Source: an uncultured Lachnospiraceae bacterium
Lineage (GTDB): Bacteria; Bacillota; Clostridia; Lachnospirales; Lachnospiraceae
Direction of reading: 5' to 3'
Assembly: GCA_902797025.1 (NCBI GenBank)
Contig: CADBRN010000039.1
Location: forward strand, 1 to 51,485
Length of the DNA: 51,485 nt
The notes under the pieces were generated by a model. That model made no database searches and had not been told where the DNA came from. It worked only from the letters and a program-made list of their open reading frames with translations. This document shows, piece after piece, positions 18,546 through 35,744 of this stretch. The position numbers and the translations under genes were made by a program. How positions within the stretch are numbered: the stretch's first letter is position 1; each line of letters starts with the position of its first letter.

Positions 18546-19279
18546 TTTCCCATCCCCTCCGTTTCCGTCTGTAGCTTCCGCTCCGCCATCTGATCGGACA
18601 GCGATTGTTTTTCCTCTTCCGTCGTTTCATCCTTTCCCGACGGCGATTTGAACGTCACACCGATCTGTGCGGTCACCGTTCCGTCGTTCTCTTCGTTCGT
18701 CGCAGTTGACGGAGAGACGTATGAGACGATATCCGACTGACGCAGCGCCGCGACGACGCCGGCGACTTCCGAGAGGGTCGTCCGGTCGATAAGCAGCGTG
18801 GCGGTATTATCCTCGATCGAGATACTCTGGATTCCTGAATTCACGACGACGTACTGATCGATCACTTGCATTATTTTCGCCCGGTCCTGCCGCGCACTCT
18901 CCTCGTCCGTCAGATCCCCGTCGCCGTAATGAACATACTTCGAATTGACATCGTTGTAGACATTGTTCGCGTCACGTAGCTGCTTCAGCGTATCCTCCTC
19001 GCGGTTGTACGCACTCTCTGCGACATTTACCTTCCGGATCTGATCGATCACCAGAAACTTCGTCGCGACTGCAAGCACGACGAGGAAAAGACCAAATACG
19101 ACCAGTTCAAATACGGTCCGTGCCGGGTCCTTTTCCTGCTGCAGAAGATTGATCGCGTTTTTTTTCGGATCGTTCGACTTCAATCCTCGTATCCCGGCTG
19201 ACAATCGTTTTTTTAAATCCGGCAATGTCCGTCCCTCCTTCATTGCGGTAGATTCTGTCAATGGCATCCGCTCTTTCAC
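18542..19279 (-). CDS. pilN: PilN-like type IV pilus assembly protein
   Basis: A 245-residue protein with a cytoplasmic N-terminus containing NAINLLQQEKDP, which resembles the INLL-P motif of PilN that docks into PilM. One membrane helix (about 58-82) follows, then a coiled coil and a ferredoxin-like domain ending near 220. A GTG at 19279 overlaps the pilM stop codon; an ATG four codons later (19267) or one twelve codons later (19243) may be used instead. It sits between pilM and pilO with overlapping ends, which suggests translational coupling. Confidence 0.82.
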   Translation of the reverse strand: MKERMPLTESTAMKEGRTLPDLKKRLSAGIRGLKSNDPKKNAINLLQQEKDPARTVFELVVFGLFLVVLAVATKFLVIDQIRKVNVAESAYNREEDTLKQLRDANNVYNDVNSKYVHYGDGDLTDEESARQDRAKIMQVIDQYVVVNSGIQSISIEDNTATLLIDRTTLSEVAGVVAALRQSDIVSYVSPSTATNEENDGTVTAQIGVTFKSPSGKDETTEEEKQSLSDQMAERKLQTETEGMGN

Positions 19280-20280
19280 GGCAGCAGCACTGCGCCCGCC
19301 GCGGCGCCGATGCGGGTCCGCTCCTCTCTTGCCAAAGCCGATCCCTCCATCAGCTCCGCGAGATCCACCAGCGGCATCTCAATATTGCTTCTCAGCTCAT
19401 CCATCAGCCCCTGGAAGCAGCTTCCGCCTCCGCAGTAATAGACCCGGTCCAGATTGTTATCCGGATTATTGAAACTGTAAAAGTTCAGCACCCGCATCAC
19501 CTGCATCGCCATATTTCCGTAAATCGTCTCGAGATCCTGCAGATCATCCGTTCCGCTCTCTCCGGTGGAATGCTCTTTTCGCATCATGACGGTGTGTTCG
19601 TCCTGCCCGGTCGCGTTTGAAATCGCCGTGATCAGCTGATTACAGCCCGGTTCAAGGGACCGCGTGACCTCGTAGATGCCGCGCCGGTAGAAATGAACTT
19701 TCAGGGATCCGTGTCCGAGATCGAGAATCACATAATCCTTCTCCCCCGGTGTCATGGCCTGCTTCACCTCATGATTGCGGAGGAGCCTTCCATAACAGAG
19801 TTCTTCCGGAACGATCGCACGGAGCTTCAGATGTGCCCTCCGGAACATCTGCCTGTACGCATCCAGCATCTTCTTCTTCGCTGCGGCGAGCAGCAGATCC
19901 AGATTTCTGTCATCGCTTCCGAGCACCGCGTAGTCATAAAAATACGATCCGATGTCCTCCGTGATAAACTCATGAAACTCATACGGGATATTCACCGCCA
20001 GCTGTTTCGCCGTCATTTTCGGCATCGTCGACCGGCGGATGTAGCATCCGTCCGCAGGCAGAGCTGCCGCGCAGGTCTTCGTATGGATCTCGTTTGCCTT
20101 TATCTGCTCGCTGATAAAATCCGCCATCGCGCCATACGACATAATCCGGCCGTCCTTCACCAGATGATCCGGCATCTTCACGCACACCGCGAAAGAAGGA
20201 ATCCCGTCTTCACAAAGCGCTATTTTCAGATATCCGGACCCGATATCAAAACCGAGCATTCTCTGATTTGCCATTTTCAT
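19276..20280 (-). CDS. pilM: PilM, actin-like type IV pilus assembly protein
   Basis: A 334-residue cytosolic actin-fold protein related to FtsA. Visible parts are LGFDIGSGYLKIAL (phosphate 1), VILDLGHGSLKVHFY (phosphate 2, near residue 185) and VYYCGGGSCFQGLMDEL (adenosine site, near 285). It binds the N-terminal tail of PilN and, in Gram-negative systems, connects to PilB. Order pilM-pilN-pilO is conserved here, whereas pilP and pilQ are missing, as expected in a cell with no outer membrane. Confidence 0.93.
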   Translation of the reverse strand: MKMANQRMLGFDIGSGYLKIALCEDGIPSFAVCVKMPDHLVKDGRIMSYGAMADFISEQIKANEIHTKTCAAALPADGCYIRRSTMPKMTAKQLAVNIPYEFHEFITEDIGSYFYDYAVLGSDDRNLDLLLAAAKKKMLDAYRQMFRRAHLKLRAIVPEELCYGRLLRNHEVKQAMTPGEKDYVILDLGHGSLKVHFYRRGIYEVTRSLEPGCNQLITAISNATGQDEHTVMMRKEHSTGESGTDDLQDLETIYGNMAMQVMRVLNFYSFNNPDNNLDRVYYCGGGSCFQGLMDELRSNIEMPLVDLAELMEGSALAREERTRIGAAAGAVLLP

Positions 20281-20328: not shown

Positions 20329-21129
20329 TTATCCGATACCGGCAAGACGTAGATACCACCTCAGAAACGCGCCGCCGAACAGAAGACACACATATGCGGA
20401 AAGCGATATCGCAGGTCCGAACGGAATCTTCTTTTTCCTGAGAAAAGCGGTCATCAGCAGGCCCGTCACACAGGAAAGGATCAAATGAAACAGCCCGATC
20501 CACGGTCCGAGATACAGCCCGGAGGCGAACAGCAGCTTGATGTCGCCGCCGCCCATCCCGGCAGTCTTCCGGATCCGTTCGAAGATCAGATCGATCACCA
20601 GGACGCCTCCGCCGATGAGCAGACCGCCTGCAAGACCGCGAAGCGCACAGCCTTTCGGATCACCGGATAAAAGAAGAAACGGGACCCACCAGATCAGCAT
20701 TGCTGCGATAAATCCGTCCGGTATCACCATCGCCATCCGGTCCACGAAAGAGAGACCGAGAAGGATCGCAGAAAGCACCATGCACGTCAGTGTCTCCGCA
20801 TCGAATCCGAACCGGAGAAACGCGCCGAGCCATGCAGACCCCAGAAGGATCTCCGCCGTGACGGAATCCGCCGGGATCTTCGCGCCGCAGTATCGGCATC
20901 TGCCTTTCAGAAACACGTATCCGAGAACCGGAACGAGATCCGCGGCGCCCAGGACATGACCGCACGCGTCGCAGTGGCTCCTGCCCGACAGGACGCTCTC
21001 ATGGTGCACGGTGCGCCACGCGAGGCAGTCGATGAAACTGCCGAACGCGCTGCCAAGCACGAACGTCAGAAAGCCACTCCATATCACAAAGGCAGGTGTA
21101 AAATGATTCCACATCCATTCAACCGTCAT
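20329..21129 (-). CDS. pilD: Prepilin peptidase (PilD-type)
   Basis: A 266-residue membrane aspartyl protease that cleaves prepilins after the conserved Gly and, in bifunctional members, N-methylates the new N-terminus. About eight helices are seen. The cytoplasmic zinc-binding loop carries two CxxC pairs, CDACG (near residue 53) and CRYCG (near 78). The two catalytic aspartates are in SFVDRMAMVIPD and MGGGDIKLL. The zinc loop suggests it keeps both protease and methylase activity. It lies 13 bases after pilC and should process the five prepilin-like proteins in this window. Confidence 0.95.
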   Translation of the reverse strand: MTVEWMWNHFTPAFVIWSGFLTFVLGSAFGSFIDCLAWRTVHHESVLSGRSHCDACGHVLGAADLVPVLGYVFLKGRCRYCGAKIPADSVTAEILLGSAWLGAFLRFGFDAETLTCMVLSAILLGLSFVDRMAMVIPDGFIAAMLIWWVPFLLLSGDPKGCALRGLAGGLLIGGGVLVIDLIFERIRKTAGMGGGDIKLLFASGLYLGPWIGLFHLILSCVTGLLMTAFLRKKKIPFGPAISLSAYVCLLFGGAFLRWYLRLAGIG

Positions 21130-21142: not shown

Positions 21143-22360
21143 TCAGAAAAGATTGTACATCGTAAACATCGGCAGATAAATCGAGATGACGATAAAGCCG
21201 GCGAAGAACGCGAGAAAAATCAGGATCGTCGGTTCAAGCCGGTTCAGCGCCTGCTTCGTCAGATGATCCGCTTCGTTGTCGAAATAGTCGCCGATGACGC
21301 GGAGGGTCTCGTCGAGATCACCGGTCTCCTCGCCGATGCCGGTCATCTGCCGGAGCGTATCCGGAAACTCCTCAACCTGCCGGATACAGTCTTTCAGTGA
21401 ACGGCCCGCCTCGATCATTCCCCGCATCTTGCGGACCTCATCCCGCAGCACTGCATTATTCAGAACATTCGCGGTCACTTCGATCGCGCGATTTACCGTT
21501 AGTCCCGATCCGAGCATGACGGACATCGTATCCGCAAACTGCGCCGCGCCCAGCGCGACATGAATTTTTCCGAGAACCGGCAGTTTCATGTCAAGCCTGC
21601 CCTTTGCCATTGCACCTTTTTCCGTGCGGAAATAGACCCGGAATCCGATCACTGCTCCGAGGATCACGAGAATAATCAGGATCCACCATTTCGAGAAAAA
21701 ATCCGACATGGCGATCATCGCCCGGGTAAGCGACGGGAGCTGTCCGTCCATCGAAGAAAACACCTGCGCAAGCGTCGGGATAACCTTCGCCATCACGATG
21801 ATCAGAACCACCGCTGCTACGGCCAGGACGAAGACCGGATACGTCATCGCCTGCTGAAGCTTCTCCCGGTTCTTCGCGGACTTGTCGTAATAATGGTGCA
21901 TACGCGTGAACGTATCCTCCAGGGTTCCTGCCTCCTCGCCGGCCCGGATCGATTCCGTGAAGGTCACGGGAAACACACCGTTTCCGTTCCGCTCGAATGC
22001 GGAAGCCACCGTGCTTCCCTCGGAGACATCCTCCGCGACCTCAGAGAGGATCTTCGCGATCTTTTTATTCTGCGTCTGTTCGGCGATCATGCTGACGCAG
22101 CGCGCGACCGGCATGCCTGCCTGAAGCATGATCTCAAACTGAGAACAGAGGATCGAAAGATCCCCGTCTTTCATTTTCGGTTTCCGGCTGATCTCCATCG
22201 TCAGAAACGAGCCGGTCTGTTCCTTCACCGGATTGATCGCGGTGATGACCGGACACGTCTCTTTGATTTTCTGCACCGCGGTCATCTCGTCCTGCGCGCG
22301 GACGACTCCCCGCACCGCTTTTCCGTCCGGTCCGATCGCCCTGTACTGAAACGTAATCAT
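21143..22360 (-). CDS. pilC: PilC, type IV pilus inner membrane platform protein
   Basis: A 405-residue GspF-family polytopic protein that forms the platform on which pilin is stacked. It begins with FQYRAIGPDGK, carries two copies of the GspF domain (about residues 65-190 and 270-395) and three membrane helices (about 168-190, 220-240 and 378-400). The typical LxQQ-MTYPVF block is present. The gene lies between pilT and the peptidase gene at 12- and 13-base spacings. Confidence 0.95.
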   Translation of the reverse strand: MITFQYRAIGPDGKAVRGVVRAQDEMTAVQKIKETCPVITAINPVKEQTGSFLTMEISRKPKMKDGDLSILCSQFEIMLQAGMPVARCVSMIAEQTQNKKIAKILSEVAEDVSEGSTVASAFERNGNGVFPVTFTESIRAGEEAGTLEDTFTRMHHYYDKSAKNREKLQQAMTYPVFVLAVAAVVLIIVMAKVIPTLAQVFSSMDGQLPSLTRAMIAMSDFFSKWWILIILVILGAVIGFRVYFRTEKGAMAKGRLDMKLPVLGKIHVALGAAQFADTMSVMLGSGLTVNRAIEVTANVLNNAVLRDEVRKMRGMIEAGRSLKDCIRQVEEFPDTLRQMTGIGEETGDLDETLRVIGDYFDNEADHLTKQALNRLEPTILIFLAFFAGFIVISIYLPMFTMYNLF

Positions 22361-22372: not shown

Positions 22373-23434
22373 CTAAAAAATCATTTTCCGCCTGAGCAGC
22401 TCCTGATCATTTCCCGCCTCAAGCGCCGTATCCGGTTTGATCAGCCCCCGGGAAGCGAGATCGATCAGACAATGATCCATCGTGACGCAGCCATCCTTCG
22501 CGGAAGTCTGAAGCGCATTCTGCATCTGAGGCGTCTTTCCTTCGCGGATCAGATTCCGTATTCCGGGGGTCACGATCATAATCTCACTTGCAAGAACCCT
22601 TCCCTTCCCCGAAGCTTTCGGGAGAAGCTGCTGGGAAACTACGGCGCGCAGCGTCGTTGAAAGCTGCATACGGATCTCACTCTGGCGCTCCGCCGGGAAA
22701 ACGCCCACCAGTCGATCGACGGAATCCACGGCTGAGTTTGTGTGCAGCGTCGCAAATACCAGATGCCCGGTCTCCGCTGCGACGAGCGCAGTCTCGATCG
22801 TGACATTGTCCCGCATCTCGCCGATCAGTATGATATCCGGATCCTCCCGGAGGATCGCCCGGAGTCCGTCCGGATACGATTCCGTATCCTTCCCGATCTC
22901 CCGCTGATTGATGAGACACAGATCCGGTTCATAGACATACTCGATCGGATCCTCCAGCGTGATAATATGCTCACGCCGCGTGTGATTGATCGCATCCAGA
23001 ATCGCGGCAAGCGTCGTAGACTTACCGCTTCCGGTCTCGCCGGTGATCAGAACAATCCCCTTATTGTAGCACGGAAACTGCATCGCGGCTTCCGGCAGGC
23101 CCAGCGTCTCGATCTCCGGGATATGGCTGCTCAGGATCCGGATCGCGGCCGCCAGAGCCCCCCGGGAGCGATAAAGATTGATGCGGACCCGCTCGCCGGC
23201 GATCGTCCGCGCCAGGTCCCACTCCCCGGTTTCTCCGATCTCATTCCTCTGCTCCCCGGCAAGCGACTTCGCAAGTTTCTCACAGTCCTCCGCGGTCAGA
23301 ATATCGCCGCAGAGATCACTGAGTTCCCCGTCGATCCGCACTTTCGGCGGGAGGCCGCAGGTAAGATGAATATCCGACGCTCCCATCGCGGCGGCGCTCT
23401 CCACGAGCATTTCCACATTCAAAGAGATTGCCAT
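22373..23434 (-). CDS. pilT: PilT, pilus retraction ATPase
   Basis: A 353-residue hexameric secretion ATPase that depolymerises the pilus. Walker A is GETGSGKSTT near residue 134, the Asp box is EDPIEY, Walker B is DIILIGEMRD, and the His box is ATLHTNSAVDS. The C-terminal IRNLIREGK motif separates PilT from PilB and is needed for retraction in known systems. Presence of this gene suggests a dynamic pilus able to pull, as in twitching, rather than a fixed fibre. It starts 40 bases after pilB. Confidence 0.96.
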   Translation of the reverse strand: MAISLNVEMLVESAAAMGASDIHLTCGLPPKVRIDGELSDLCGDILTAEDCEKLAKSLAGEQRNEIGETGEWDLARTIAGERVRINLYRSRGALAAAIRILSSHIPEIETLGLPEAAMQFPCYNKGIVLITGETGSGKSTTLAAILDAINHTRREHIITLEDPIEYVYEPDLCLINQREIGKDTESYPDGLRAILREDPDIILIGEMRDNVTIETALVAAETGHLVFATLHTNSAVDSVDRLVGVFPAERQSEIRMQLSTTLRAVVSQQLLPKASGKGRVLASEIMIVTPGIRNLIREGKTPQMQNALQTSAKDGCVTMDHCLIDLASRGLIKPDTALEAGNDQELLRRKMIF

Positions 23435-23474: not shown

Positions 23475-25145
23475 TTATTCTGTCCGCAGCGTCCGGATGA
23501 TCTCTTCGAGGGTCGTCGTTCCTTCTTCCGCCATCCGGTCCGCGTTCACGATCATCGGGGTGAAATCCGTCTCACCCGCAAGACGGCGAAACTCCTCCTT
23601 GTCGCCGCCGGAGGTGATGCAGTGCCGCAGCGCATTGTTCATCACCAGAATCTCGAACACACCGGTCCTGCCGCGGTAGCCCGTGTGGAAGCAGTAGTCG
23701 CACCCTTTTCCCCGGTAATAGTTCCTGCCGGGGAAATCTCTAACTTTTGCGAGACTGATTTCCGAAGGATCCGGCACATACTCCTCCCTGCAATGCGGGC
23801 AGATCCTGCGAAGCAGACGCTGTGAGATAATCCCGCGCAGGCCGCCGGCGATCAGATACGGTTCAACGCCCATATCCCGCAGACGGTCGATGGCAGAGAC
23901 CGCATCCTCCGTATGAATCGTCGAGATCACGAGATGTCCGGTCATCGCCGCACGCATCGCGATTTCCGCCGTCTCGCCGTCGCGGATCTCACCGACACAG
24001 ATGATGTCCGGGTCCTGACGCAAGATTGCCCGAAGCCCCGATGCGAAGGTAAGTCCGACCTTTTCGTTGATCTCCACCTGGACCGCACCGTCGATATGGT
24101 ATTCGACCGGATCCTCCAGCGTGATCAGATTCGTCTCCTCGGAAAGAAGCTCCCGCATGAGCGCGTACATCGTAGATGATTTTCCGCTTCCGGTCGGTCC
24201 GACGATGAGAATCACACCGCTCGAGAGCGACATCAGACGATCCAGTTTCTCATTCTCGCCGGCAGGAATGCCGATCCCGACTCTCGTAAGCTCTGTATCA
24301 CCGGCTCCCAGGAGACGGAGAACGATCTTCTCTCCGTAGATCGTCGGCAGCGTGGAGATTCGCAGATCCACTTCTTTTTCCCGCACCTGCAGCACCGCGC
24401 GGCCGTCCTGCGGCATCCGTCTCTCCACGATATCCATCTTTCCCATGACCTTCAGCCTTGAAATAACCGGTTCGATCAGATCCGACGGAACGGCCATAAT
24501 CCGATGCAGCCGCCCGTCGATCCTCATACGGATGATCATATCGCCTCCGGTCGGCTCAAAATGGATGTCGGAGGCCTTTTCCGTGACACCGCGCCCGATG
24601 ATCGAATTCACAAGCCGGATCGTCGGCGCATCCGCTTCATGCGCCTCCTCGTCGTTCACTGCGTCGTTCGAGATGCCTGCTTCCTCGCGCATCTGCTGCA
24701 TCGCCTCAGCGGCGCCCTCATTTCCGTATAGCACACTGATCGCGTGGCTCACAGCCGAACCTGCAGCGATCATCGGTACGATTCTTTTTCCGGAGGTATC
24801 CCGGGCGTACTCGATCGCCATAAAGTTCAGAGGGTCCTCCATCGCAAGAAACAGCGTATCCTTCGACATACGGACCGGTACAATGGAATATTTCTTCGCG
24901 CCATGCGCCGGAATCAGCCGGGACATCGAAGGATCAATATCAATCTTCGAGAGATCGATATAATCGATGCCGAGCTGAATCCGAAGTGTCTCGATCAGCT
25001 GACGTTCCGTGATGAATCCGTCGCCGACCAGTACCTCGCCCAGACGCTTGTGTTCCTCTTTCTGTTTTTCGAGTGCCTGCTGTAGCTGCTCCCTGTTGAT
25101 CACGCCCTGCTGAATCAGCATATCACCCAAACGTTTATTTTTCAT
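23475..25145 (-). CDS. pilB: PilB, pilus extension ATPase with N-terminal MshEN domain
   Basis: A 556-residue assembly motor. Residues 1-60 carry two 24-residue motifs, each starting RLGxxL and containing G-x-I then L-x-x-x-L-x-x-Q: 5-28 (RLGDMLIQQG...) and 34-57 (RLGEVLVGDG...), separated by five residues. This is the layout of the MshEN c-di-GMP-binding domain. The ATPase core has SDIHFEP near 192, Walker A GPTGSGKSS at 316-324, EDPVEY, DIICVGEIRDGET and TIHTEDAVS. A four-cysteine zinc site (CPHC near 444, CDYC near 476) is present, as is usual for PilB. The motor is therefore likely to be controlled directly by c-di-GMP. It is preceded by a 133-base gap after the cyclase gene. Confidence 0.95.
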   Translation of the reverse strand: MKNKRLGDMLIQQGVINREQLQQALEKQKEEHKRLGEVLVGDGFITERQLIETLRIQLGIDYIDLSKIDIDPSMSRLIPAHGAKKYSIVPVRMSKDTLFLAMEDPLNFMAIEYARDTSGKRIVPMIAAGSAVSHAISVLYGNEGAAEAMQQMREEAGISNDAVNDEEAHEADAPTIRLVNSIIGRGVTEKASDIHFEPTGGDMIIRMRIDGRLHRIMAVPSDLIEPVISRLKVMGKMDIVERRMPQDGRAVLQVREKEVDLRISTLPTIYGEKIVLRLLGAGDTELTRVGIGIPAGENEKLDRLMSLSSGVILIVGPTGSGKSSTMYALMRELLSEETNLITLEDPVEYHIDGAVQVEINEKVGLTFASGLRAILRQDPDIICVGEIRDGETAEIAMRAAMTGHLVISTIHTEDAVSAIDRLRDMGVEPYLIAGGLRGIISQRLLRRICPHCREEYVPDPSEISLAKVRDFPGRNYYRGKGCDYCFHTGYRGRTGVFEILVMNNALRHCITSGGDKEEFRRLAGETDFTPMIVNADRMAEEGTTTLEEIIRTLRTE

Positions 25146-25278: not shown

Positions 25279-26352
25279 TCAGCCGCCGATACAGTACCGG
25301 TTTTTCCCGTTTTTTTTGGCCTGATACTGGACCGCGTCCGCTGCAGTGTAAATCTCGCTGTAGTCCTTATAATTTCCCCGGTTGATTACACAGCCGATGC
25401 TGACACTGACGCAGTCCTGATTCTCCTCGGAAAGAACGATGTCCTGAATCTCCTCCCTGATCTCTTCCAGTCTTTTCCGGATGATCGTTTCGTCCTGAAG
25501 ATTTCTCGCATAGACGACAAACTCATCGCCGCCCATACGCATCACCACATCATCGGATCGGAAGATCGCACCCACGACCGCGGCGACGCTCTGCAGCACG
25601 AGATCTCCGGTGTGATGTCCGTACGTGTCATTGATATGCTTGAAATTATCCACATCAATCAGCAGGAACGCACCGCCCTCGCCCCTCTTCAGGCAGCTGT
25701 TGATCGTGACTTCTCCGCCTCTCCGGTTCAGAATCCATGTCAGCCCGTCGTGTTCAGCCGTATCGAGTGTATTGCGGTTCTGGCGGATCAGGTCGATCTG
25801 GATACCGGACATATGGACACTTCCGATTGCCGAAAGGACATTGACGAGTATCAGCCGGATCAGATCCGACATAAACACTTCTCCGTCAAAGTACACCATA
25901 GACAGCGCCACATAAACAACGGACGCCGCTGTGGTGAAAAGGATGACCCGGAACGGAGCGTCAAGAATACTGCAGGGCAGTGCGAGGAGGAGGATCATGA
26001 AAATCACTCCCATCCGGTTCGGCTCCACCGCCGTTTCAAACACGGCGTCCGCGGTCAGGATCATTCCGGTCCACACGTAAAACGAGACCGTCTCCCTCTC
26101 CCGTATCCGGCGGCGGATGCCAAACCAAATCGCCATGGAGAGCGCGATCACCACGAACAGAAAAATCGTCTCATCAAACAGCTCGGTCTTTCGGAACAGC
26201 ATCTGCATCAGAATCGCCATCCCCATCGCGGCCAGACACGCGATCTGTTCCCGTTCCATGGTGGATTCGTTTCTCCGGCTGATCTCCCGCCGGTATTTCT
26301 TCAGATCACTTTGCAAAAGCCGGTCTTTCAACCGGATAACCATCTGATTCAT
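25279..26352 (-). CDS. Membrane diguanylate cyclase (GGDEF) with I-site
   Basis: A 357-residue enzyme making c-di-GMP from two GTP. About six membrane helices occupy residues 37-185 and form the input part. The GGDEF domain (about 200-355) has the intact signature MGGDEF at 273-278, and the metal site in LIDVDNFKHIND. Residues 265-268 are RSDD, an RxxD five residues ahead of the signature, i.e. a product-inhibition site. The gene lies between the giant prepilin (51-base gap) and pilB (133-base gap), so it is probably part of the pilus operon and could supply c-di-GMP close to the PilB motor. Confidence 0.92.
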   Translation of the reverse strand: MNQMVIRLKDRLLQSDLKKYRREISRRNESTMEREQIACLAAMGMAILMQMLFRKTELFDETIFLFVVIALSMAIWFGIRRRIRERETVSFYVWTGMILTADAVFETAVEPNRMGVIFMILLLALPCSILDAPFRVILFTTAASVVYVALSMVYFDGEVFMSDLIRLILVNVLSAIGSVHMSGIQIDLIRQNRNTLDTAEHDGLTWILNRRGGEVTINSCLKRGEGGAFLLIDVDNFKHINDTYGHHTGDLVLQSVAAVVGAIFRSDDVVMRMGGDEFVVYARNLQDETIIRKRLEEIREEIQDIVLSEENQDCVSVSIGCVINRGNYKDYSEIYTAADAVQYQAKKNGKNRYCIGG

Positions 26353-26403: not shown

Positions 26404-29400
26404 TCAACTACCATATTCAATTTGCGCGGACAGCGAGCTCAATGTTCCGTCTTCCCCCTCATTCAGGGTGTATGAAAACGTGAACATCCTTGCCTCGTCC
26501 GTGCTTCGCATATCATTGTAGTCGCTCTGGAAAACATAGGTGTGGGTTGCCGGATCATACGATACAATCTTTGCCCCCTTCACACCGGTAATCGTTCCGT
26601 TAAACACGGCGGTGCAGGTCCAGATCCCTTCATCCTGCTGATCATTATATATCGTGACCGAGCAGTAGCGGTAATTGTTCCATAATTCGTACCCCGTCCG
26701 CAGTTCGGTTGTGCCATCCGATGACGTGTCGAGGCTGATCCCGTACTCATCGTGATACAGATCATTCGTCCGTGAATCCGACGTTCCAGGCGCGTACCAG
26801 TCTCCGAAGTACGCCTGGGCATCCCCCGTTTTCCCCACGGAGGAATTGCCATAGATATACTGGCATGGCACGCCATACGGATTCGCACCGCCGCCGGCCG
26901 GGATGAAGGTGTAGTACGGATGCGTCTCACCGGCCGCCGTGAATCCTCCGCTTGTGACCATGGCGGTTCCAAGTTCGTCCGCCCGGTATGCTTTCACATA
27001 ATCGCGGTACGGATTCCCATATTTCTTCGTGTTCGCCGTGGCCAGATACCCGCAGTTCTGAATCGCATTGTACCCGGTGATGCTGCGGCAGAAGGCATAA
27101 TTCTCGAACGTTCCACGGTCGGATTCGCCGTTCATCGCCCAGACCGCGCTATAATTCGAATCAACCGTACAATTATTTCCGATCGTATCCGCGAATCCGC
27201 TCATCACTGAGTTCGCAGAATCATCCGTTGCGGCAAGCAGAACGCCGGTCACATAATTATATCGCACCGCCGTATTATCGATTGCCGACGCAAATCCGGA
27301 TACGAAATCATCACGATTTCCGGTGTTCCACACCCAGTCCCCGGACTTTGTTCCGGCCCGGATGACGACATTCGCGTAATTTCCCTCGATCGTCCCCGAG
27401 GTACTTGTCACCGCAAAACCGGCCGTCTTCCACTCTGAAGCGATGGTTGCCGTGATGCTGCATCCGTAAATGCTGCCCGCATTCTGATTCACGAAACCTC
27501 CGATGGTATAATTCGAGCTGTCGAGCAGATCCGATGTTTTCGGCTTATAGCCGACCGTCGTCATGCTGTAAAGATTGTACTGTGCGCCATAAGTGCCTCC
27601 GAAATCGGCGGTACCTTCGAGTTTGAAGTAAACCCGATCCGCAAGTCCGTCTTCATAAACAGCCCGGTCCGCGTAAATATGATTGTCGACGAGCAGCCCG
27701 TTGTACGAGTTTGTCCGCACGAAACCCGAACCTCCGATCTTCGCGTTCACGATCGACGTCCCTGTGATGATTCCGCTGTTTTCGTTCACGATTCCGTTGC
27801 CGCTGATATAGGCATTTTTCACCGTGCAGCCGCTGATCGTACAGTTCTGCGAATGTTTTTCGGCGATGCCGCAGCTGCTGAAGTCCGCATCATCGACCGC
27901 AACATCCGAGAGATTGCCGCGGTTATCCGCTGCCACACCGTTCACCGCCCGGAGATGATCGATCCGGACGTTCCGGATCGTGCCGCTTTCTCCACTTCCG
28001 GTTCCGTTTGTCGTCACGATCCCGTTCCCGTCCGAAAAATCGCAGTTTTGAATCGTGACATCGGAAATCGTTCCCTGATTTCCCGTACAGATTCCGTTCA
28101 CCGCGTTCTGATTCCGGCGGTTATTCGCATCAAGATCCCGGTCGGCCGTCACATGATCCAGCGTGACATTCGTGATCGACGAGCCATTATAATCATGAAC
28201 GAGAACACTGCCGCTGAAGCTGCCCCCGGAAATCACAACATTTGTGATCTCGGCCGTCTGCCCTCCGTTCGTCTGGAGATTGTCAAAAAGGCTCCGCCCC
28301 TTCGTATTTGAAAGCGTTACATTTTTGAAAACGCCATAGTTGTTCTTTCCGAACAGATTGTCCGAATAATCTGTCTCAATGGCGTTGATCCGATGATTTC
28401 GCCCGTCAAACGTGCAGTTGAAATTGTCCCTCGTAAACGGCTGCATCCGATAGGTTGCGCTGCCCGCGCTGTATCCGGTTGTGAACGTCTTCGTAAAATC
28501 GATGTCCATGGTCTGGCTGATCTGATACGAAGATTGCTGCAGATAATTGATCGTATTCGCCTGGTTCGCCTGAAACAGATTTGCCAGCTGCCCCGCGCTC
28601 CGGATCTGGATCTTTCCGGCCAGACGATCGTCCAGACCGGTCTGACTCGACGAGACGCCGTCGGCGGAATACGGGCTGACGAAAAACTGGGCGCAGCGGA
28701 CGTACTTCCAATCCTCCTGCTTCTGCCTTACCGCGAGATAGAAATGGAAGTCCGAACTGTTCCAGCAATTCGTCATCGCGGACGGATCTTTGATCACGTA
28801 AGCATCGTAATTTCCGCCGATATTCAGCCTGTTGCTGCCCAGCAGATCATCATTCTTCTGTGCAGACTCAGCCAGGGACATCCCGTTATTGATCATGCCC
28901 CAGTCATAACCGAAATATGTGTTGCGATCCGTAAGGGCATCTCCGTTCAGCGCGGCATCTCTGTTCAGAAGGATGACATATCCGTCCTCCACCACATACT
29001 CGCCGCTTTTTTCCGTGATCGGATCTCCGTCGGTCATCGGTTTGATCTTGAAATCCGAGGCGGTATCCACGGAAAAATCGTTCGTCACACTGTTCGTCAC
29101 GCTCTCCCAGTAACCATGATACGTATAGTAGGAAGAGCCGTCTTCTCTTTCGACTTTCTCATAGTAGAGAAGTCCGATATCCCCCGTATCCTCCGGCGAC
29201 GGAACCGGCCAGTCGCCGACGTGCTTCATGCCGCCGACACCGCCGTAATCATACGTCCTCTGGTTCAGCGTGCTGTCATACGGTGCGGCCTCTGCGCCGT
29301 TGCCTGCAAAAACGCCTTCGCCTCTGGCAAGAAGAACGATGCCCGCAGGATCCGCGTCTCTGTTTCCAGCCAGCTTCATGCTGTTCGCGTTGACATTCTT

Positions 29401-31962
29401 CAGCGCGCTGCAGTTCTCATACGATGCACGGTCACCTGAAACACCGGCAAAAACACCTTTCAAGGCATTTTCATCCTCCGCCGTCACGAGGCCCGTGCAG
29501 TAAACCTGCTTCAATGTCATTTTCCCGGAAGAATCACCGACAAAACCGCCGGCAGACGACGATTCCCCCTTCGGATTCCGGATACCGCCGGATCCAAGGC
29601 AGACCGATGCCGTCGTGTAGCTGTCCGTCACCGTCAGGTCTCCGGCATTTCTTCCGATAAAACCGCCCGCGTGGCCGTCCATGGCATTGAGCACATTCTT
29701 GTTATAAATAGCATTGCTGTCATCCGGGTCGGCGCCGTAGGTGCCTCCTGTCGTTCTTCCGGCAACATAACTGCTGTTTACCGAGACGGTTCCTCCGGCA
29801 ACATTGCCGATGAAACCGCCCGCGCTGCAGACGGAAGCGCCGTCCGAAGAGGTCTTGACCTGACCGATCTGTCCGACACTGACGTACGTTTTTTCGACCG
29901 ATACGGTGCCGTCCTCCACCCGGGCGATGATGCCGCCGGCGTCGTCTCCGAGGCTGGTGATCCTTCCATGATCCGATTGCACATGGCAGTGATTGATCTT
30001 CAGTTCCCTGACACGGGTGACCAGGCCGATCAATCCGCCGGATAAATGATCTGCTTCGGTTCCGCTCCCGATCACGGTCTCCGCACGATTACTCTCAAAA
30101 TACGAATCCGAAACCGAAACCGATGCCGAATGATCGATGCGCCCGATCAGACCGCCTTCCTCACCGGCTCCTCCTCCTAAAACCGAGTCGGTCACGGCAG
30201 AGTGATCCACGGTCAGAGAAGCATTTTTCGCGGTCACACCCACAAGGCCGCCGGCGCTGTCCGCCCGGCCGTCAATTGTCAGACCGGAAACATTGACATT
30301 GCCTGCCGTATAATTGTATTGTTCCGACGCCCGGCCCAGCAGCGCACCTGCTCCGCCTATTCGGTTCTTACTTCCGTCGAGTTCAAAATTCTTCAGGGTC
30401 AGATTGCGCAGACTGGCATCGTGCCCGATCCGGCTGAACAGCCCCGCGTCGTTATTTCCTTCGCGTCCGCCCGCCCCGATCCGGAAATCGGAAAGCTCAG
30501 CGCCGCTCTCAGCGGACACATCGCTGAGGGAATCACTGCGGATCCCATAAAAGGTATACGCTTCGGGCGATTTTTTGCCGTCTGCGAAATAAACCGTATC
30601 GGTGTCCGTACCGGTCTTTTTAAAGCCGCAGGCACCATTTTCCGCGGCGATTTTCTCGAAGAAATCGTTGTCGCCGGAATTGTCCGAATGCCACGTGATG
30701 CGGTTCGTGATCACCGCCTGACTGACCGCGGCGCCGGATCCGCTGATCTCTTTGGAAAGATTCGCGAGATGTCTGGCGTTTCCGATCCGCGCGGTCCGGA
30801 CCGTATGATCCGACGCGCCGCCTGTGGCCGTACCGTCCGCGTACAGACTGTTCGCGATATTCGAGACCCGGGACCTGGAAAGCTCCTTCACGCCGGTTCC
30901 GTAGGAAACCGTCGCCTTCGCCGCGATGTTCCTGCCGGCGAGCGCCTTCAGAGAGGAATTCTGAATCTCAGAAAGATGTCTTCCGGCGTCCACCACACTG
31001 TCCAGGATGTAATACCGCGTATACTCGGGATACCCTTCCTTCGTGACCCATTTCGTAGATTCGGAATCCGGATCCACATTCAGTTCAGCCCTGGTGCCTG
31101 GATTTTCCGCATCGTACAGTTCGACCCGGAGACGGACATGGTCGGCGATCCCGTAACTCTTCCGTTTTGCAAGCAGTTTCCCGTTATCGGCGTAGGTGAT
31201 CTTCAGGATCAGCCGCTCCTCATTGAGCAATTCAATCTGCGGCGCGATCACGTCATTGTCTGCCGATGAATTCGCCTGCTGTTTTCTCGCCGCTGCGCCC
31301 CCGTAGTAACCGATCTGATATTGATTCTCATAATTGATCCGGTTCTTCCGGTCGTCGCGGCCTCCGGCCATCTTGTCGAGCGACGTGACATCCTTTTCGG
31401 AAAAGGACGGATCCTGATCGGTGTAAAAAACGCCGTAGACCTGTGCGGTATAGGCATCATATTCGATGACATACGTCCCGCCGGAACGAACCGTTTCATC
31501 GATCGAACCGATCGGAAGAAACAGACTCAGTGCGGTATCCTTCAGTCTGTCCGCGGCATTATCCGCGTTCACCGTGATGGTGCGCAGATCGTGTTTCCCC
31601 GAATCCTTCAGATCGGTCAGATACGGTTCCGAAGACGCATCCAGCCGGCCGCCGAACCAGGTTCCGCCCCCGCTGCTCTTCTTATCGTATTCGGTACCCC
31701 AGGCTCCCGACGCTGCTGCGGCGGTCAGATGATTCTGCGCGCCTTCATAGATTTCCCGGGCGATGTTGTCGTTTTCCGTCAGCTTCAGATTCCGCCGATG
31801 CTGCATCAGCGCCACAAATCCGAAGGCCGCAAGGACGCCGATGATCGCGACGACAGCCAGAAGCTCCACCATCGTAAAGCCCTGATTCTTTCTTTTTCTT
31901 TCTACCATACTCATCACCCGCTGTTCTCTCATCTCGTTAGCATACGCCCGTCCGCGGCTCAC
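26404..31962 (-). CDS. Giant type IV prepilin with GLUG/beta-helix repeats, putative tip adhesin
   Basis: An 1852-residue prepilin, about ten times the usual length. The N-terminus has a textbook prepilin site: basic leader, G28, then FTMVELLAVVAIIGVLAAFG with Glu at mature position 5, and a pilin helix to about residue 75. A spacer region follows to about 480. Residues 480-830 contain a series of GLUG-like turns (GGLVGV, GGLIGR, GGLIGL, GGFIGN, GGFIGR, GGFVGD, each followed by a strand and a SY/NC-type step). Residues 1170-1600 carry a second repetitive, N-rich beta-helix-like region. The end (about 1740-1852) looks like an Ig-type domain. Codons start with GTG at 31962 overlapping the upstream stop, or ATG at 31914. 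An adhesin role at the pilus tip is inference. Confidence 0.85.
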   Translation of the reverse strand: MSRGRAYANEMREQRVMSMVERKRKNQGFTMVELLAVVAIIGVLAAFGFVALMQHRRNLKLTENDNIAREIYEGAQNHLTAAAASGAWGTEYDKKSSGGGTWFGGRLDASSEPYLTDLKDSGKHDLRTITVNADNAADRLKDTALSLFLPIGSIDETVRSGGTYVIEYDAYTAQVYGVFYTDQDPSFSEKDVTSLDKMAGGRDDRKNRINYENQYQIGYYGGAAARKQQANSSADNDVIAPQIELLNEERLILKITYADNGKLLAKRKSYGIADHVRLRVELYDAENPGTRAELNVDPDSESTKWVTKEGYPEYTRYYILDSVVDAGRHLSEIQNSSLKALAGRNIAAKATVSYGTGVKELSRSRVSNIANSLYADGTATGGASDHTVRTARIGNARHLANLSKEISGSGAAVSQAVITNRITWHSDNSGDNDFFEKIAAENGACGFKKTGTDTDTVYFADGKKSPEAYTFYGIRSDSLSDVSAESGAELSDFRIGAGGREGNNDAGLFSRIGHDASLRNLTLKNFELDGSKNRIGGAGALLGRASEQYNYTAGNVNVSGLTIDGRADSAGGLVGVTAKNASLTVDHSAVTDSVLGGGAGEEGGLIGRIDHSASVSVSDSYFESNRAETVIGSGTEADHLSGGLIGLVTRVRELKINHCHVQSDHGRITSLGDDAGGIIARVEDGTVSVEKTYVSVGQIGQVKTSSDGASVCSAGGFIGNVAGGTVSVNSSYVAGRTTGGTYGADPDDSNAIYNKNVLNAMDGHAGGFIGRNAGDLTVTDSYTTASVCLGSGGIRNPKGESSSAGGFVGDSSGKMTLKQVYCTGLVTAEDENALKGVFAGVSGDRASYENCSALKNVNANSMKLAGNRDADPAGIVLLARGEGVFAGNGAEAAPYDSTLNQRTYDYGGVGGMKHVGDWPVPSPEDTGDIGLLYYEKVEREDGSSYYTYHGYWESVTNSVTNDFSVDTASDFKIKPMTDGDPITEKSGEYVVEDGYVILLNRDAALNGDALTDRNTYFGYDWGMINNGMSLAESAQKNDDLLGSNRLNIGGNYDAYVIKDPSAMTNCWNSSDFHFYLAVRQKQEDWKYVRCAQFFVSPYSADGVSSSQTGLDDRLAGKIQIRSAGQLANLFQANQANTINYLQQSSYQISQTMDIDFTKTFTTGYSAGSATYRMQPFTRDNFNCTFDGRNHRINAIETDYSDNLFGKNNYGVFKNVTLSNTKGRSLFDNLQTNGGQTAEITNVVISGGSFSGSVLVHDYNGSSITNVTLDHVTADRDLDANNRRNQNAVNGICTGNQGTISDVTIQNCDFSDGNGIVTTNGTGSGESGTIRNVRIDHLRAVNGVAADNRGNLSDVAVDDADFSSCGIAEKHSQNCTISGCTVKNAYISGNGIVNENSGIITGTSIVNAKIGGSGFVRTNSYNGLLVDNHIYADRAVYEDGLADRVYFKLEGTADFGGTYGAQYNLYSMTTVGYKPKTSDLLDSSNYTIGGFVNQNAGSIYGCSITATIASEWKTAGFAVTSTSGTIEGNYANVVIRAGTKSGDWVWNTGNRDDFVSGFASAIDNTAVRYNYVTGVLLAATDDSANSVMSGFADTIGNNCTVDSNYSAVWAMNGESDRGTFENYAFCRSITGYNAIQNCGYLATANTKKYGNPYRDYVKAYRADELGTAMVTSGGFTAAGETHPYYTFIPAGGGANPYGVPCQYIYGNSSVGKTGDAQAYFGDWYAPGTSDSRTNDLYHDEYGISLDTSSDGTTELRTGYELWNNYRYCSVTIYNDQQDEGIWTCTAVFNGTITGVKGAKIVSYDPATHTYVFQSDYNDMRSTDEARMFTFSYTLNEGEDGTLSSLSAQIEYGS

Positions 31963-32582
31963 ACCGTCAGTGCATGTGCATACGCGGTCTGTCCCGTGAC
32001 CGGCTTACCGGCACCTCCGTCCCCCAAACGGTACACGGTTACGGTAAACCGAAAACAATGCCTGCCCTCATCGTACTGAAAATTCTTCTCATCGATCACC
32101 GCATACAGATCCAGAGACTGGGTCTTTGCTGCGACCGCCGGATCGGCCGAATCCGCGTCTTCCGAATCCTCCGGACTGCCGGAATAATAATTTTTTGTGA
32201 TTACGGTTTTCCCGCTGTTCTCTCCTGTCTTCCCGGACTGCGTCTTCCCTGTGCCTTCGTTCGTAAAGGTTTCATTGTACCCGAGCGACGCATTATAGAA
32301 ATACTTCACCGGGGAAAAACCGCCGTCGGATGGAATGACCGCCGTGGAGGCTTCCGTCACAACATCCGATGCATTGTACAGATCCTCACTGACCGCGAGA
32401 ATCGCCGTCGAGAGAAGGGTCTGGGCGTCGGCCTGCTCCCTCACCTTTTTATAGACCCGGTAAGAAGCGGCAGAACCTGCCGTGACCGCCAGAAGAACGA
32501 CCGAAAAGATCAGCACCGTAACGAGAGTCTCTGCAAGACTCATGCCTCTTGTGTTCGCCAGCTTTTTCATACTCTGCCTCAC
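31959..32582 (-). CDS. Minor prepilin, GspJ/PilW-like
   Basis: A 207-residue prepilin. The leader MKKLANTRG is followed by MSLAETLVTVLIFSVVLLAV, with the cleavage Gly, Glu at mature position 5 and the E-x-L-V-x-x-x-I-F pattern of GspJ/PilW proteins. A globular domain of about 150 residues includes repeated Asp/Ser-rich stretches. A GTG at 32582 overlaps the previous stop; an ATG at 32570 has GAGG six bases upstream and may be the true start. It overlaps the next gene by four bases, so its translation is probably coupled to that of the giant prepilin. Confidence 0.8.
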   Translation of the reverse strand: MRQSMKKLANTRGMSLAETLVTVLIFSVVLLAVTAGSAASYRVYKKVREQADAQTLLSTAILAVSEDLYNASDVVTEASTAVIPSDGGFSPVKYFYNASLGYNETFTNEGTGKTQSGKTGENSGKTVITKNYYSGSPEDSEDADSADPAVAAKTQSLDLYAVIDEKNFQYDEGRHCFRFTVTVYRLGDGGAGKPVTGQTAYAHALTV

Positions 32583-33004
32583 GGATCCTGATAACCTATA
32601 ACCGTTTTCTTTCCCGTCGCTTCATTTGTGTCTGACTGCTTCCTGACCGGGATCTTTGTGATACTGTCCCGGTTCGATGCACCGCCGGTTCCTCCGAAGG
32701 AAAAGGAAGCGTCGGAATCATCCTTCGATCCCGCATCCTGCAGCCTGCCGTTTTGTACCGTCACATGACTGTCTTCCTCATCAAGAGGGACCGTGGCTGC
32801 CGTGTCTCCGCTGTCCGCTCCGCCGTACTCGGCGGAATTTTTCACCTGCATATTTGTGGCAAAAACCTCGCCGGATTTTTTTACGAGACGCTGCGCGGCT
32901 GTCAGCATACTGACCAGAAGCACCAGCGCCAGCGCCGCCACGAGCGCCGCCACCAGCACTTCTGTGATCGTCTCGCCTTTTGAACTTTTCAATTTTCTGA
33001 TCAT
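32579..33004 (-). CDS. Minor prepilin, GspI/PilV-like
   Basis: A 141-residue prepilin. The basic leader MIRKLKSSKG is followed by ETITEVLVAALVAALALVLL: cleavage after Gly10, Glu at mature position 5 and the EVLVA block typical of GspI/PilV. The first residue of the mature protein would be Glu rather than the more usual Phe. The globular part is short and hydrophilic and has no Cys pair. The start ATG overlaps the previous stop (ATGA) behind GGGAGG. Confidence 0.8.
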   Translation of the reverse strand: MIRKLKSSKGETITEVLVAALVAALALVLLVSMLTAAQRLVKKSGEVFATNMQVKNSAEYGGADSGDTAATVPLDEEDSHVTVQNGRLQDAGSKDDSDASFSFGGTGGASNRDSITKIPVRKQSDTNEATGKKTVIGYQDP

Positions 33005-34095
33005 GATCCGCCTCCCGAAAGCTGCAGGATCCCCTCATCCCAGCAGATATTTACCGTCACGTTCCGTGCATCGGTATAATGACGCCGGATATTTGCAGGA
33101 GATCCGGCATCTCCCGCGATCTCCTCCCGGCTGTTTTCCGACACCGACGAAGTGCAGGAGACAGCGGCATCCTTCGCCCGGAATACCAGTTCTCTTTCAT
33201 TCGTCTTCGTCCCGTCTTTGTCCCTCGTATAGAGATCGACCGTCAGGAGAAAATTTTTGTCCATGGAAAATTCCGCATAGACCGCCGGAAAATTGTCTTC
33301 ATTTTCCAGACGGATCTCAAAAGGCGATGCCTCATCGGTGCCGATCGAATAATCTCCGGCATTCTCCACCGCCTGACTCCAGGGCATACTGCCCTGCGCC
33401 ACACCGTCCCAGGGATCGGAAGACGCTCCGCCTCCGCCGGAGGTTCCTCCCGCATCACCGCCGGATGAGCCCCCTCCGGAAGGATCCGTGACCGTATCCC
33501 AGTAATGACGATATACTGCGTAAGCCATCATATCCCTGAGGAGAGGAAACGTGTCCGCGCCCGTCGTTCCCGCCTGACGGATCTCATGCTGATTCTTCTG
33601 ATTAAAAGTCAGATAGTTCCTGAGATCTACACTTTTTTCGTCTGATATCCCACTTCCGTCATTTTTCTCTTCCGAGACCTGATACGACCAGCCCGGATTG
33701 TCACCGGACCAGGCGGTATCATCGAGGCCCATCAGCCATCGACTGCCGGAATCCAGTGTGACGTCTCCGGAGGTCATCGACCCGTCCGGATTCGTCTTAT
33801 AATCATCCTGTGTGTAATGAACCGTCCAGCTCTGCTCCGCCTCCATGCCGTTCATCCTGTTCATTTCCGTCCGGATCATGGACGCCGCGTCGTTGACCGC
33901 ATATCTTCCGATGCTGCCGCTGTCTTTGATCCCGGAGACCCGTCCGGAGGTTGTATTCGCCGCCGCCAGTATGACAGCGCCGACACAGGCACAGACAAGA
34001 AAAAGCAGAAGCGCCACGCTCAGAGTGGCCCCCTCTTCCGATTTCAGTTTTCTGTACAGGGTTCTGTTCGTCTTCATAATCGGCGTCTTTTTCAT
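33001..34095 (-). CDS. Minor pilin, GspK/PilX-like, lacking Glu5
   Basis: A 364-residue pilin-like protein. The leader of about 20 residues ends in KSEEG, followed by ATLSVALLLFLVCACVG: a prepilin-type helix, but with Val in place of Glu at mature position 5. Absence of Glu5 is a mark of GspK-type pseudopilins and of some PilX proteins, which cap the tip. A Gly/Ser-rich stretch near residue 255 (GGSSGGDAGGTSGGGG) separates two parts of the globular region. The ATG at 34095 is preferred over longer frames because it lies 20 bases after the phosphodiesterase stop, with AAAGGG upstream. It overlaps the next gene by four bases. Confidence 0.75.
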   Translation of the reverse strand: MKKTPIMKTNRTLYRKLKSEEGATLSVALLLFLVCACVGAVILAAANTTSGRVSGIKDSGSIGRYAVNDAASMIRTEMNRMNGMEAEQSWTVHYTQDDYKTNPDGSMTSGDVTLDSGSRWLMGLDDTAWSGDNPGWSYQVSEEKNDGSGISDEKSVDLRNYLTFNQKNQHEIRQAGTTGADTFPLLRDMMAYAVYRHYWDTVTDPSGGGSSGGDAGGTSGGGGASSDPWDGVAQGSMPWSQAVENAGDYSIGTDEASPFEIRLENEDNFPAVYAEFSMDKNFLLTVDLYTRDKDGTKTNERELVFRAKDAAVSCTSSVSENSREEIAGDAGSPANIRRHYTDARNVTVNICWDEGILQLSGGGS

Positions 34096-34114
34096 AAAAC
34101 CAATTGCATCCCTT

Positions 34115-35692
34115 TCACGATTCGGTGGGTTCCGCATTTTTGATACAGGATAGAACCTTCTCCGATCCCGGGATAAGCAGAAGGTTGAATTCATTCCAGC
34201 GGTAACTGCCTTTCGCATCGCCTGCAGGAATCAGCACCCGGAAATAACCCCGCAGAACCCCGTCGGACGTCTTCTTCAGCCGCCCGATCATCGTATCCGC
34301 ATCGGCAAAGGATCGATACCGTTCCTGATCCTCCGGGTATATCATATGATCGCAGAAGAACTGCAGGCCGGCGCGAAGCCGGTCATGATCGATCAGTCCC
34401 GCATTAATACCGAGGTTATTGATCAGATTGTCCGCAGTGTCCGCCTCCGGGTTGAGAAGGTGCACATCGTCAAACAGCAGAACCAGATCCGCCAGGGACT
34501 TGTCAAGATTCTTTCCGATCTTTTCATTGCGGTCCTTCGTGACATTGACGATCGATGTCACGAAAATACAGCGGTCTTCCCTGCTGGCGGCCAGCCTGCT
34601 TGAGGTCCGGACAAAACAGGAATTATCCATGGCATACATCGTGACGGATTCCCCCGTCCGGTACACCCGCTCTAAATACTCCTCCACATTTGCGTGCAGC
34701 GGATCATCCCTGTTATTCAGGACAAACTCCGAGTCAGCGACAGTGGTGCGGCCCAGACTCCGCAGCTGTTCCTTTTCGCTTTGATTCAGGAACAGAAAAT
34801 GGAGTTGATCGGTCTTTCTGTGATACTCCATGACGGCGCGGGGCGTATCGCTGTTGATCACATAAGCATCCGCCCGGTCATAGAATCCGGTCCATTCGAT
34901 CGTCTCCGCCTCCATGTCCCGCCGTTCAATAAATTCCGGCAGGCTCCCTGCCGGAAATGGTTTCGTATAATAATACCCCTGCATCATATCACAGCCGATT
35001 TCCTTCAGAAACCGGACCTGTTCTTCCGTCTCGACGCCCTCCGCCAGTGTCCGGATGCCGAGTTTCTTGGCCATGTCCACGGCGCTTCTCATGATCGTCC
35101 TGGATGTATGGGTGAAGGATCTGAGAAATCCCATGTCAAGTTTAATCAGATCCAGCGTATAGTCGTTCAGAAAAATAAGAGAGGAATAGCCGCTTCCGAA
35201 ATCATCCATCCAGATCTGAAATCCGTCTGACCGCAGTTCCTTTACGATCCGGACCATCCGCTCTTTATTCTGCACCAGCAGACTTTCTGTGAGTTCGATC
35301 GCGATCAGATCCTTCCGGATACCGAAGCGATCGATCTGCCGCTGTACGAACGCCGCCACATCCACCGTCTCGAAATCCTGCCTCGAAAGATTGACAGAAA
35401 TCCTCCCCACCGGCAGTCCGGCATCGATCCGCTCCTTTTGTAACCGCATCGTCTCCGTCACCATAAAGCAGTCAACCTTCCAGATCAGACCCTCTCTTTC
35501 CAGTACCGGTACAAACATGTCCGGCATGATCATACCCAGGGTCGGATCGGCCCAGCGTGCCAGCGCCTCCGCGCCCGAATACGAATCGGTGATGGTGCGG
35601 ACGAGGGGCTGTAGATATAGTTTGATCCATCCCTGCTCCAGTGCCGTATCCAGATGCGAAACAATATATCGCTCCATTTCGTGTTTATTCAT
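34115..35692 (-). CDS. EAL-domain c-di-GMP phosphodiesterase, first gene of the minor-pilin operon
   Basis: A 525-residue cytosolic protein that should hydrolyse c-di-GMP to pGpG. Unusually it begins directly with the EAL domain (about 8-265). All catalytic positions are seen: EAL at 42-44, N101, ELTE at 133-136, DDFGSGYSS at 163-171, K184, AEGVE at 217-221 and Q238. The rest (about 270-520) is two PAS-like modules similar to those in the two large GGDEF-EAL proteins nearby. No membrane helix. The ATG at 35692 has AAGGA eight bases upstream, and lies downstream of a strong promoter. It ends 20 bases before the minor pilin, so phosphodiesterase and pilins are likely one transcript. Confidence 0.92.
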   Translation of the reverse strand: MNKHEMERYIVSHLDTALEQGWIKLYLQPLVRTITDSYSGAEALARWADPTLGMIMPDMFVPVLEREGLIWKVDCFMVTETMRLQKERIDAGLPVGRISVNLSRQDFETVDVAAFVQRQIDRFGIRKDLIAIELTESLLVQNKERMVRIVKELRSDGFQIWMDDFGSGYSSLIFLNDYTLDLIKLDMGFLRSFTHTSRTIMRSAVDMAKKLGIRTLAEGVETEEQVRFLKEIGCDMMQGYYYTKPFPAGSLPEFIERRDMEAETIEWTGFYDRADAYVINSDTPRAVMEYHRKTDQLHFLFLNQSEKEQLRSLGRTTVADSEFVLNNRDDPLHANVEEYLERVYRTGESVTMYAMDNSCFVRTSSRLAASREDRCIFVTSIVNVTKDRNEKIGKNLDKSLADLVLLFDDVHLLNPEADTADNLINNLGINAGLIDHDRLRAGLQFFCDHMIYPEDQERYRSFADADTMIGRLKKTSDGVLRGYFRVLIPAGDAKGSYRWNEFNLLLIPGSEKVLSCIKNAEPTES

Positions 35693-35744
35693 TCGGGCCG
35701 TCCTTGTCGCTGAGTAATCATACTGATAAATTGAATGAAGGTGC

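Follow-up and report, generated by a model that had tools for sequence, protein, structure and literature searches.

The window, by which we mean the whole stretch of 51,485 nucleotides analysed here from an uncultured Lachnospiraceae bacterium, holds a gene for a prepilin of 1852 residues within a type IV pilus (T4P) operon. An earlier note had read the protein as a pilin N-terminus fused to two long repeat regions and a C-terminal Ig-like part, taking the combined place of FimU and PilY1 as a covalent tip adhesin. Its reading frame is confirmed as a single open one, and it lies on the minus strand, which the note had not given (Table 1). Pfam analysis of the N-terminus reports the N_methyl family (PF07963; 28.4 bits, cut-off 21.2), TIGR02532 is likewise matched above its cut-off (28.1 bits), and all the elements of a class III signal are found, namely a basic leader, Gly at -1, Glu at +5 and a hydrophobic stretch. 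Residues 28-33 read G-FTMVE, the dash standing for the cleavage site, which makes residue 5 of the mature protein a glutamate, and the canonical prepilin signal claimed for this protein is therefore real. Its numbering from G28 is conditional on the chosen start, since Met11, Met17 or Met19 are also possible starts and would leave a shorter leader; the GTG start overlaps the stop codon of the preceding gene.

Table 1. Features of the giant prepilin, its operon and a further prepilin in the window
Feature	Position in the window	Strand	Basis or remark
Giant prepilin gene, 1852 aa	26404..31962	minus	One open frame; begins at GTG 31962 or at an ATG inside the gene, at most 54 bases further on
Class III prepilin signal and hydrophobic alpha1-N, residues 22-49	31816..31899	minus	N_methyl; predicted cleavage after Gly28, giving Glu at mature +5
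Pilin head, residues 50-445, RHLxNL motif near its end	30628..31815	minus	Profile matches 54/396 other genomes of the family
Repeat module 1, residues 446-925, GLUG-like, closing HVGDWP cap at 914-919	29188..30627	minus	Repeat profile, PDB profile match, cap
Linking module, residues 926-1125, LLYYEK motif	28588..29187	minus	Also after GDW caps in some relatives; no Pfam match
Repeat region 2, residues 1126-1715	26818..28587	minus	Not GLUG; weak solenoid-coil signal
C-terminal domain, residues 1718-1852, begins at second GDW (residue 1720)	26407..26811	minus	No Pfam or PDB match
K-type minor pilin without Glu5	33001..34218	minus	True start probably downstream of 34218; no family match
I-type minor pilin with Glu5	32579..33004	minus	XpsI match far below cut-off
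J-type minor pilin with Glu5	31959..32582	minus	Itself only a weak PilV match; relatives ComGF-like
GGDEF diguanylate cyclase	25279..26352	minus	Family profile
Extension ATPase PilB with MshEN c-di-GMP-binding domain	23475..25145	minus	Family profiles
Retraction ATPase PilT	22373..23434	minus	Family profiles
Platform protein PilC	21143..22360	minus	Family profiles
Prepilin peptidase PilD	20329..21129	minus	Family profile
PilM	19276..20280	minus	Family profiles
Gene in the PilN place	18542..19279	minus	No family match above cut-off
Gene in the PilO place	17880..18545	minus	T2SSM-like, below cut-off
Small prepilin, 161 aa, major-pilin candidate	50348..50833	minus	N_methyl search

In the order of transcription, the K-, I- and J-type pilin genes are followed by the giant, the GGDEF gene, PilB, PilT, PilC, PilD, PilM and the genes in the PilN and PilO places. 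The three pilin genes lie directly upstream of the giant, with 4 bases of overlap between each of them and the gene that follows. The earlier note had named them GspK/PilX-like, PilV-like and PilW-like: a pilin lacking Glu at +5, as GspK and PilX do, followed by two pilins that possess it, is indeed what the operon contains, but the K-type pilin matches no GspK/PilX family profile and the PilV match, that of the J-type pilin, is only weak (18.7 bits, cut-off 52.2). An N_methyl search of the genome at E values up to 10 returns five sites, which are the giant, the J and I pilins, and two small proteins resembling major pilins. These two prepilins, similar to each other and located outside the operon (one in the window, Table 1, the other on a separate contig, G000:C71:1-330), are likely major pilins. 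The same search leaves over no separate FimU-like pilin in the genome, with a sensitivity limited to the extent that the K pilin was missed as well. On the upstream side, the gene before that of the K pilin codes for an EAL protein, and more EAL and GGDEF genes lie farther away; genes for EAL, GGDEF and mixed EAL-GGDEF proteins adjoin the pilus operon in a row at window positions 34115-49641. A c-di-GMP riboswitch was also considered and discarded, the window holding two tRNAs only at Rfam gathering scores. The presence of a PilT retraction ATPase gene beside that of PilB bears on the kind of filament involved. HIJK sets are common to T4P and type II secretion systems (PMC10191384), so that the giant might belong to a type II-like pseudopilin, a short filament moving it as cargo or pushing other proteins out, but retraction by PilT is a T4aP trait, and we regard such a pseudopilin as very unlikely.

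Among the relatives compared, the conservation of the head extends to the RHLxNL motif. Compared with GspH/FimU families and structures, this head returns only weak matches of its N-terminal signal (gspH, 16 bits for a cut-off of 80), and because it resembles none of them, the FimU role proposed for it is read from gene order: the protein does stand beside I, J and K genes, as a GspH/FimU pilin should. The window protein does not match the beta-propeller family of PilY1 (PF05567) either, and PilY1-family searches returned no match in 150 genomes of the family, the positive controls of that search also giving none. What is supported of the role first proposed is a prepilin onto which a large repeat module is grafted, encoded next to K-, I- and J-type pilins and a T4P assembly set; the FimU place holds by position and fails by family or sequence match. 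The covalent tip adhesin of the earlier note is plausible, and the giant might replace PilY1.

The module that follows the head was examined with a GLUG-like repeat profile derived from 37 of the 38 aligned family members, the window protein being left out. Six repeats are reported in residues 400-915, three of them at 6 bits or more, with a total of 41.5 bits that none of 200 shuffles reaches. The profile of the whole 38-member alignment, headed by window residues 22-900, matches pilins of the PDB at its N-terminus and, at profile positions 432-646, PDB entry 3n6z (E 5.6e-5), a solved GLUG-type protein named putative IgA1 protease. This match links the first region, at the level of sequence, to GLUG repeats, for which a beta-helix had been suggested. 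The direct Pfam search (PF07581) put forward as a check of that suggestion does not bear it out for the window protein itself, which stays below the gathering score, so the GLUG identity of module 1 comes via the relatives. Pfam GLUG is found at E values of 0.01 or below in 17 of the 38 aligned members, the window protein not being among them, and the cut-off of 20.5 bits is passed by the relatives L018 (31.2 bits) and L019 (23.7 bits) and missed by L020 (17.8 bits) and L022 (13.3 bits). We take IPR011493 to be GLUG, and the architecture IPR012902-IPR011493 to be a pilin followed by GLUG. The plain form of the giant's family, of 730-980 residues, probably falls under this architecture in the catalogue of modular pilins, where the module is read as a predicted M26 peptidase and where no giants are described in the portion of that paper drawn on here (PMC8179133). 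A peptidase of the M26 kind would agree with the name of 3n6z and with the match of one of the 38 relatives to Peptidase_M26_N, but no catalytic M26 family is matched, and the HExxH zinc motif is absent from the window protein and from all 38 aligned members, its letters occurring in one of 100 longer sequences (G400:C3:92531). An M26 peptidase was dropped as a candidate on the lack of HExxH in the aligned members, and we hold this function to be extremely unlikely.

The end of module 1 is marked by a short cap. Out of 33 complete named relatives of up to 1000 residues, 29 stop within 45 residues after a GDW cap, which mostly reads HYGDWPAPE, and a near variant of the cap is seen in two of the four that do not follow this rule. 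The window protein displays HVGDWP at residues 914-919, where the short relatives stop, and continues for 933 residues beyond it; therefore its residues 1-925 resemble a full-length protein of the common form, and the other 927 an extension. Within this extension, repeat region 2 contains no GLUG repeat according to the profile used for module 1. It returns a weak coil signal of 8.4 bits, which none of 200 shuffles equals (6.7 bits for the top one), no autocorrelation or periodicity above the 95% level of shuffles, and nothing useful against the relatives by phmmer. A GLUG nature of region 2 is excluded by the absence of both repeats and periodicity above that level, and of the two long repeat regions first described, one is thus retained with its six repeats and the other is left with a weak coil signal. 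Neither Pfam nor the PDB supports an Ig-like fold for the C-terminal domain, contrary to what had been proposed, and a carbohydrate-binding module was considered and found unsupported. Outside the genus, a single match to this domain is returned among 199 relatives, a weak one to a surface protein.

At locus L134 the repeat module occurs three times in tandem, the second and third copies sharing 40% and 37% identity with the first, and growth by module addition is shown there, as judged from these copies. In the Clostridium fessum protein (G263), a second match to the later portion of the head profile lies downstream (E 1e-10), and BLASTP reports no similarity between the two parts at E 1e-3. 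Nor does BLASTP find similarity at that threshold between one half of the window protein and the other; in this protein, internal duplication is unsupported by the comparison and growth by module addition is only suggested.

The relatives also tell how widespread this pilin family is and whether its prepilin signal is kept. A search with the whole protein gives matches in 10 of 98 genomes, and a profile of the head (residues 50-445 and equivalents, the prepilin signal being left out) gives matches in 55 of 397 genomes of the family, taken to be Lachnospiraceae, and in 6 of 398 genomes of the phylum, three of these six being outside the family; each count includes the window's own genome. Within the genus, three of the four other species searched return no match, one of them being also devoid of any N_methyl match, which indicates that the pilin system is not fixed in the genus. 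The fourth species of the genus has, at a contig end (G002:C112:5240-5424), the last residues of the same protein, with 64% identity over about 42 residues; next to them, a 356-residue ORF stands in place of the window's GGDEF gene. Isolates with named loci include Clostridium vitabionis, Emergencia timonensis, Granulicatella balaenopterae, Eubacterium pyruvativorans and Clostridium fessum. Of the 50 whole-genome relatives, 42 measure at least 1000 residues, 37 at least 2000 and 21 at least 3000, these being lower bounds as some are incomplete. One relative of 2451 residues (L024:1988-9343, G081) returns a borderline CBM_5_12 hit (21.8 bits, cut-off 26.2, residues 1877-1918). At least two GLUG-like repeats are found in 64 of 103 protein entries, which include fragments and double entries, and in none of their 103 shuffled copies; this census was run without the HMMER composition correction and with a higher cut per repeat, an earlier figure of 47/103 having been judged unfair to long repetitive proteins.

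The prepilin signal is present in all 50 whole-genome relatives (48 found by the head alone and 2 by the whole protein), a count outside which stand 11 weaker head-profile loci (G354, G220:C25, G221, G252, G167, G157, G213, G008, G332, G348 and G248). It is also present in all 50 named loci retained from 142 pattern matches when a closer head alignment was scanned against genome contigs. A constant lack of the pilin signal in homologues, which would have spoken against the earlier reading, is thus contradicted, since neither set holds one without it. These 100 relatives amount to about 94 distinct ones, since five genes occur twice (L107/L067, L108/L016, L110/L077, L141/L079 and L149/L093) and L118/L119 form a twin pair with the same protein length and the same neighbours. 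This conservation weighs on another reading of the giant, that of a pilin-like membrane adhesin whose N-terminal helix is no more than an anchor in the cytoplasmic membrane, while the repeats cross the wall and no filament is entered. The size of the protein does make assembly hard to picture, nothing so large having been shown to assemble, and the working tip modules of Streptococcus sanguinis sit on pilins of about 50 kDa (PMC8179133, PMC9934059). Against a mere anchor speak the signal kept in 100 of 100 relatives, about 94 of them distinct, the retained Glu5 of the mature protein, and a gene embedded with those of PilD, PilB, PilT, PilC, PilM and the K-I-J pilins; we find a membrane adhesin unlikely. 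As for other anchors, no LPxTG motif occurs in the last 60 residues of any of the 103 protein entries (uninformative for the 15 truncated at the 3' end), so no other anchor is visible, and the sole C-terminal hydrophobic stretch among these entries sits in a cut fragment.

If the giant is instead a minor pilin, its association with the other minor pilins should recur in related genomes, a comparison that the earlier note had proposed. K, I and J pilins are found directly beside the giant in 58 of 99 loci with enough room (34 times upstream, as in the window, and 24 times downstream), these loci including the window, five genes counted twice and the twin pair L118/L119. As a control, such a triplet adjoins 27 of 497 other ORFs of at least 300 residues, taken on both strands in most of the same loci. 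Class III N-termini, sorted by rule into those with Glu5 and those lacking it, were the basis for scoring adjacency; relaxing the demand to I and J only gives 64 of 99 loci, and the 35 failures that remain may be due partly to the strict rule and to cut contigs, and may partly be real. Among 19 aligned J-type pilins, 12 match ComGF, 8 ComGE and 8 ComGD, while none of 19 K-type pilins matches any pilin family.

The same loci reveal further large proteins. An ORF of at least 900 residues lies upstream of the pilin in 22 of the 50 named loci, two of them clearly encoding something else (L131, helicase-like by reading, and L141, another pilin of the family). In relatives from the ruminant gut, a second giant protein is located upstream of the K pilin (L160:5019-18611, L162:6719-17869, L113, L134 and others). 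Four of the upstream giants were read further, with lengths of 3716, 4530, at least 5056 and at least 6074 residues; the first two are complete, start with what reads as a Sec signal and return a SpaA match near their end. No LPxTG motif is found in the ends of second giants examined. Beside the same minor pilins, the second giant could fill a PilY1-like place in a number of ruminant-gut relatives, and it might be thought that the tip adhesin is in general a separate secreted giant of this kind, which the GLUG pilin would only hold. The frequency of upstream ORFs and the two complete examples with a Sec start speak for it; the window's pilins have EAL and GGDEF genes next to them and no such giant, none is encoded in the 12 kb that precede the pilin of Clostridium vitabionis, and we judge this arrangement to be quite improbable.

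The longest relative is a pilin itself, a 7664-residue open frame with a prepilin signal (G220:C19:310580-333571, minus strand; loci L101 and L102), adjoining ORFs interpreted as PilB, PilT and a small pilin. Pfam analysis of its end reports an NlpC/P60 domain (E 1e-15) and a Hydrolase_2 domain (E 3.3e-14), both above cut-off, and this end also matches NlpC/P60 enzymes and a spore cortex-lytic enzyme in the PDB. Such domains are found neither by motif in the other entries examined nor by Pfam in the last 900 residues of nine other giants, and the hydrolase-ended giant comes from one genome, G220, estimated to be 7% contaminated. This pilin may carry wall-cutting enzymes at its far end, which fits a tip that must cross the wall.

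Returning to the window protein, it carries a prepilin signal, a head shared with its relatives, a GLUG-type module complete to its usual end and about 930 more residues, and its gene belongs to a T4P operon with K-I-J neighbours. We consider it probable that this protein is a giant modular minor pilin, assembled with the K, I and J pilins and displayed at the tip as the adhesive end of a retractable T4P. PilD, encoded in the same operon, would cleave the giant prepilin, which would then enter the filament-initiating complex together with the K-I-J pilins. Its display at the pilus tip would follow from an extracellular part far too large for the shaft, the argument being the same as for Thermus ComZ and S. 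sanguinis PilB/PilC (PMC6561018, PMC8179133, PMC9934059). It would thus constitute the adhesive end of a pilus extended by PilB and retracted by PilT. An MshEN domain in PilB, together with EAL and GGDEF genes surrounding the operon, suggests that the timing of pilus production is set by c-di-GMP.

The window protein would be an instance of the published modular pilins, of which S. sanguinis PilB/PilC and Thermus thermophilus ComZ are representatives. These pilins comprise more than 1200 proteins in 264 architectures, the most extreme multi-domain case reaching 860 residues (PMC8179133), and a covalent tip adhesin in monoderms has already been proposed in print (PMC8179133, PMC9934059). Similar to the window protein, S. 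sanguinis PilB and PilC are class III prepilins of a monoderm with an adhesive module behind a small pilin part, a proposed location at the tip and no PilY1 (PMC8179133, PMC9934059). S. sanguinis PilB is about 50 kDa and bears vWA or lectin modules (PMC8179133, PMC9934059), whereas the window protein is nearly four times longer, possesses GLUG repeats and returns no vWA or lectin family match. ComZ is a pilin bearing a large beta-solenoid for which, it is argued, there is room at the tip alone; this solenoid of ~380 residues is inserted in the pilin fold, is close to an ice-binding protein and belongs to a DNA receptor (PMC6561018), while the window protein presents a module of GLUG type, by its sequence, C-terminal to the head and then further modules. 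The PilY1/PilC tip protein is likewise a large tip adhesin tied to H-I-J-K minor pilins, but it is a separate non-pilin with a beta-propeller (PMC10191384), in contrast to the module of the window protein, which is part of a pilin and matches no propeller family. The open-licence literature yielded no description of pilins of such size and no paper on GLUG together with type IV pilins; what is new is the size class, the tandem modules in relatives and the 7664-residue prepilin ending in two peptidoglycan hydrolases. PilFind limited its candidates to under 350 residues (PMC3244431), and a length-limited pilin finder of this sort would therefore miss the giants.

More broadly, and as a tentative idea whose chances we put clearly short of even, giant pilins of hundreds to thousands of residues may be the covalent tip of T4P in Lachnospiraceae and other monoderm Clostridia. 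The pilin in the H place would have taken over the job of PilY1 and grown by modules, with its working domains at the far end, the first to leave the cell; in the largest, that of G220, the two peptidoglycan hydrolases would be found there, as if the tip cuts through the wall. The even larger related genes suggest that such bacteria build a working pilus tip from a single giant protein. How pili adhere in bacteria devoid of an outer membrane, and how they pass through a thick wall, are both made testable by pilins with giant modules, the family being also present in the cultured Clostridium fessum, Clostridium vitabionis and Emergencia timonensis.
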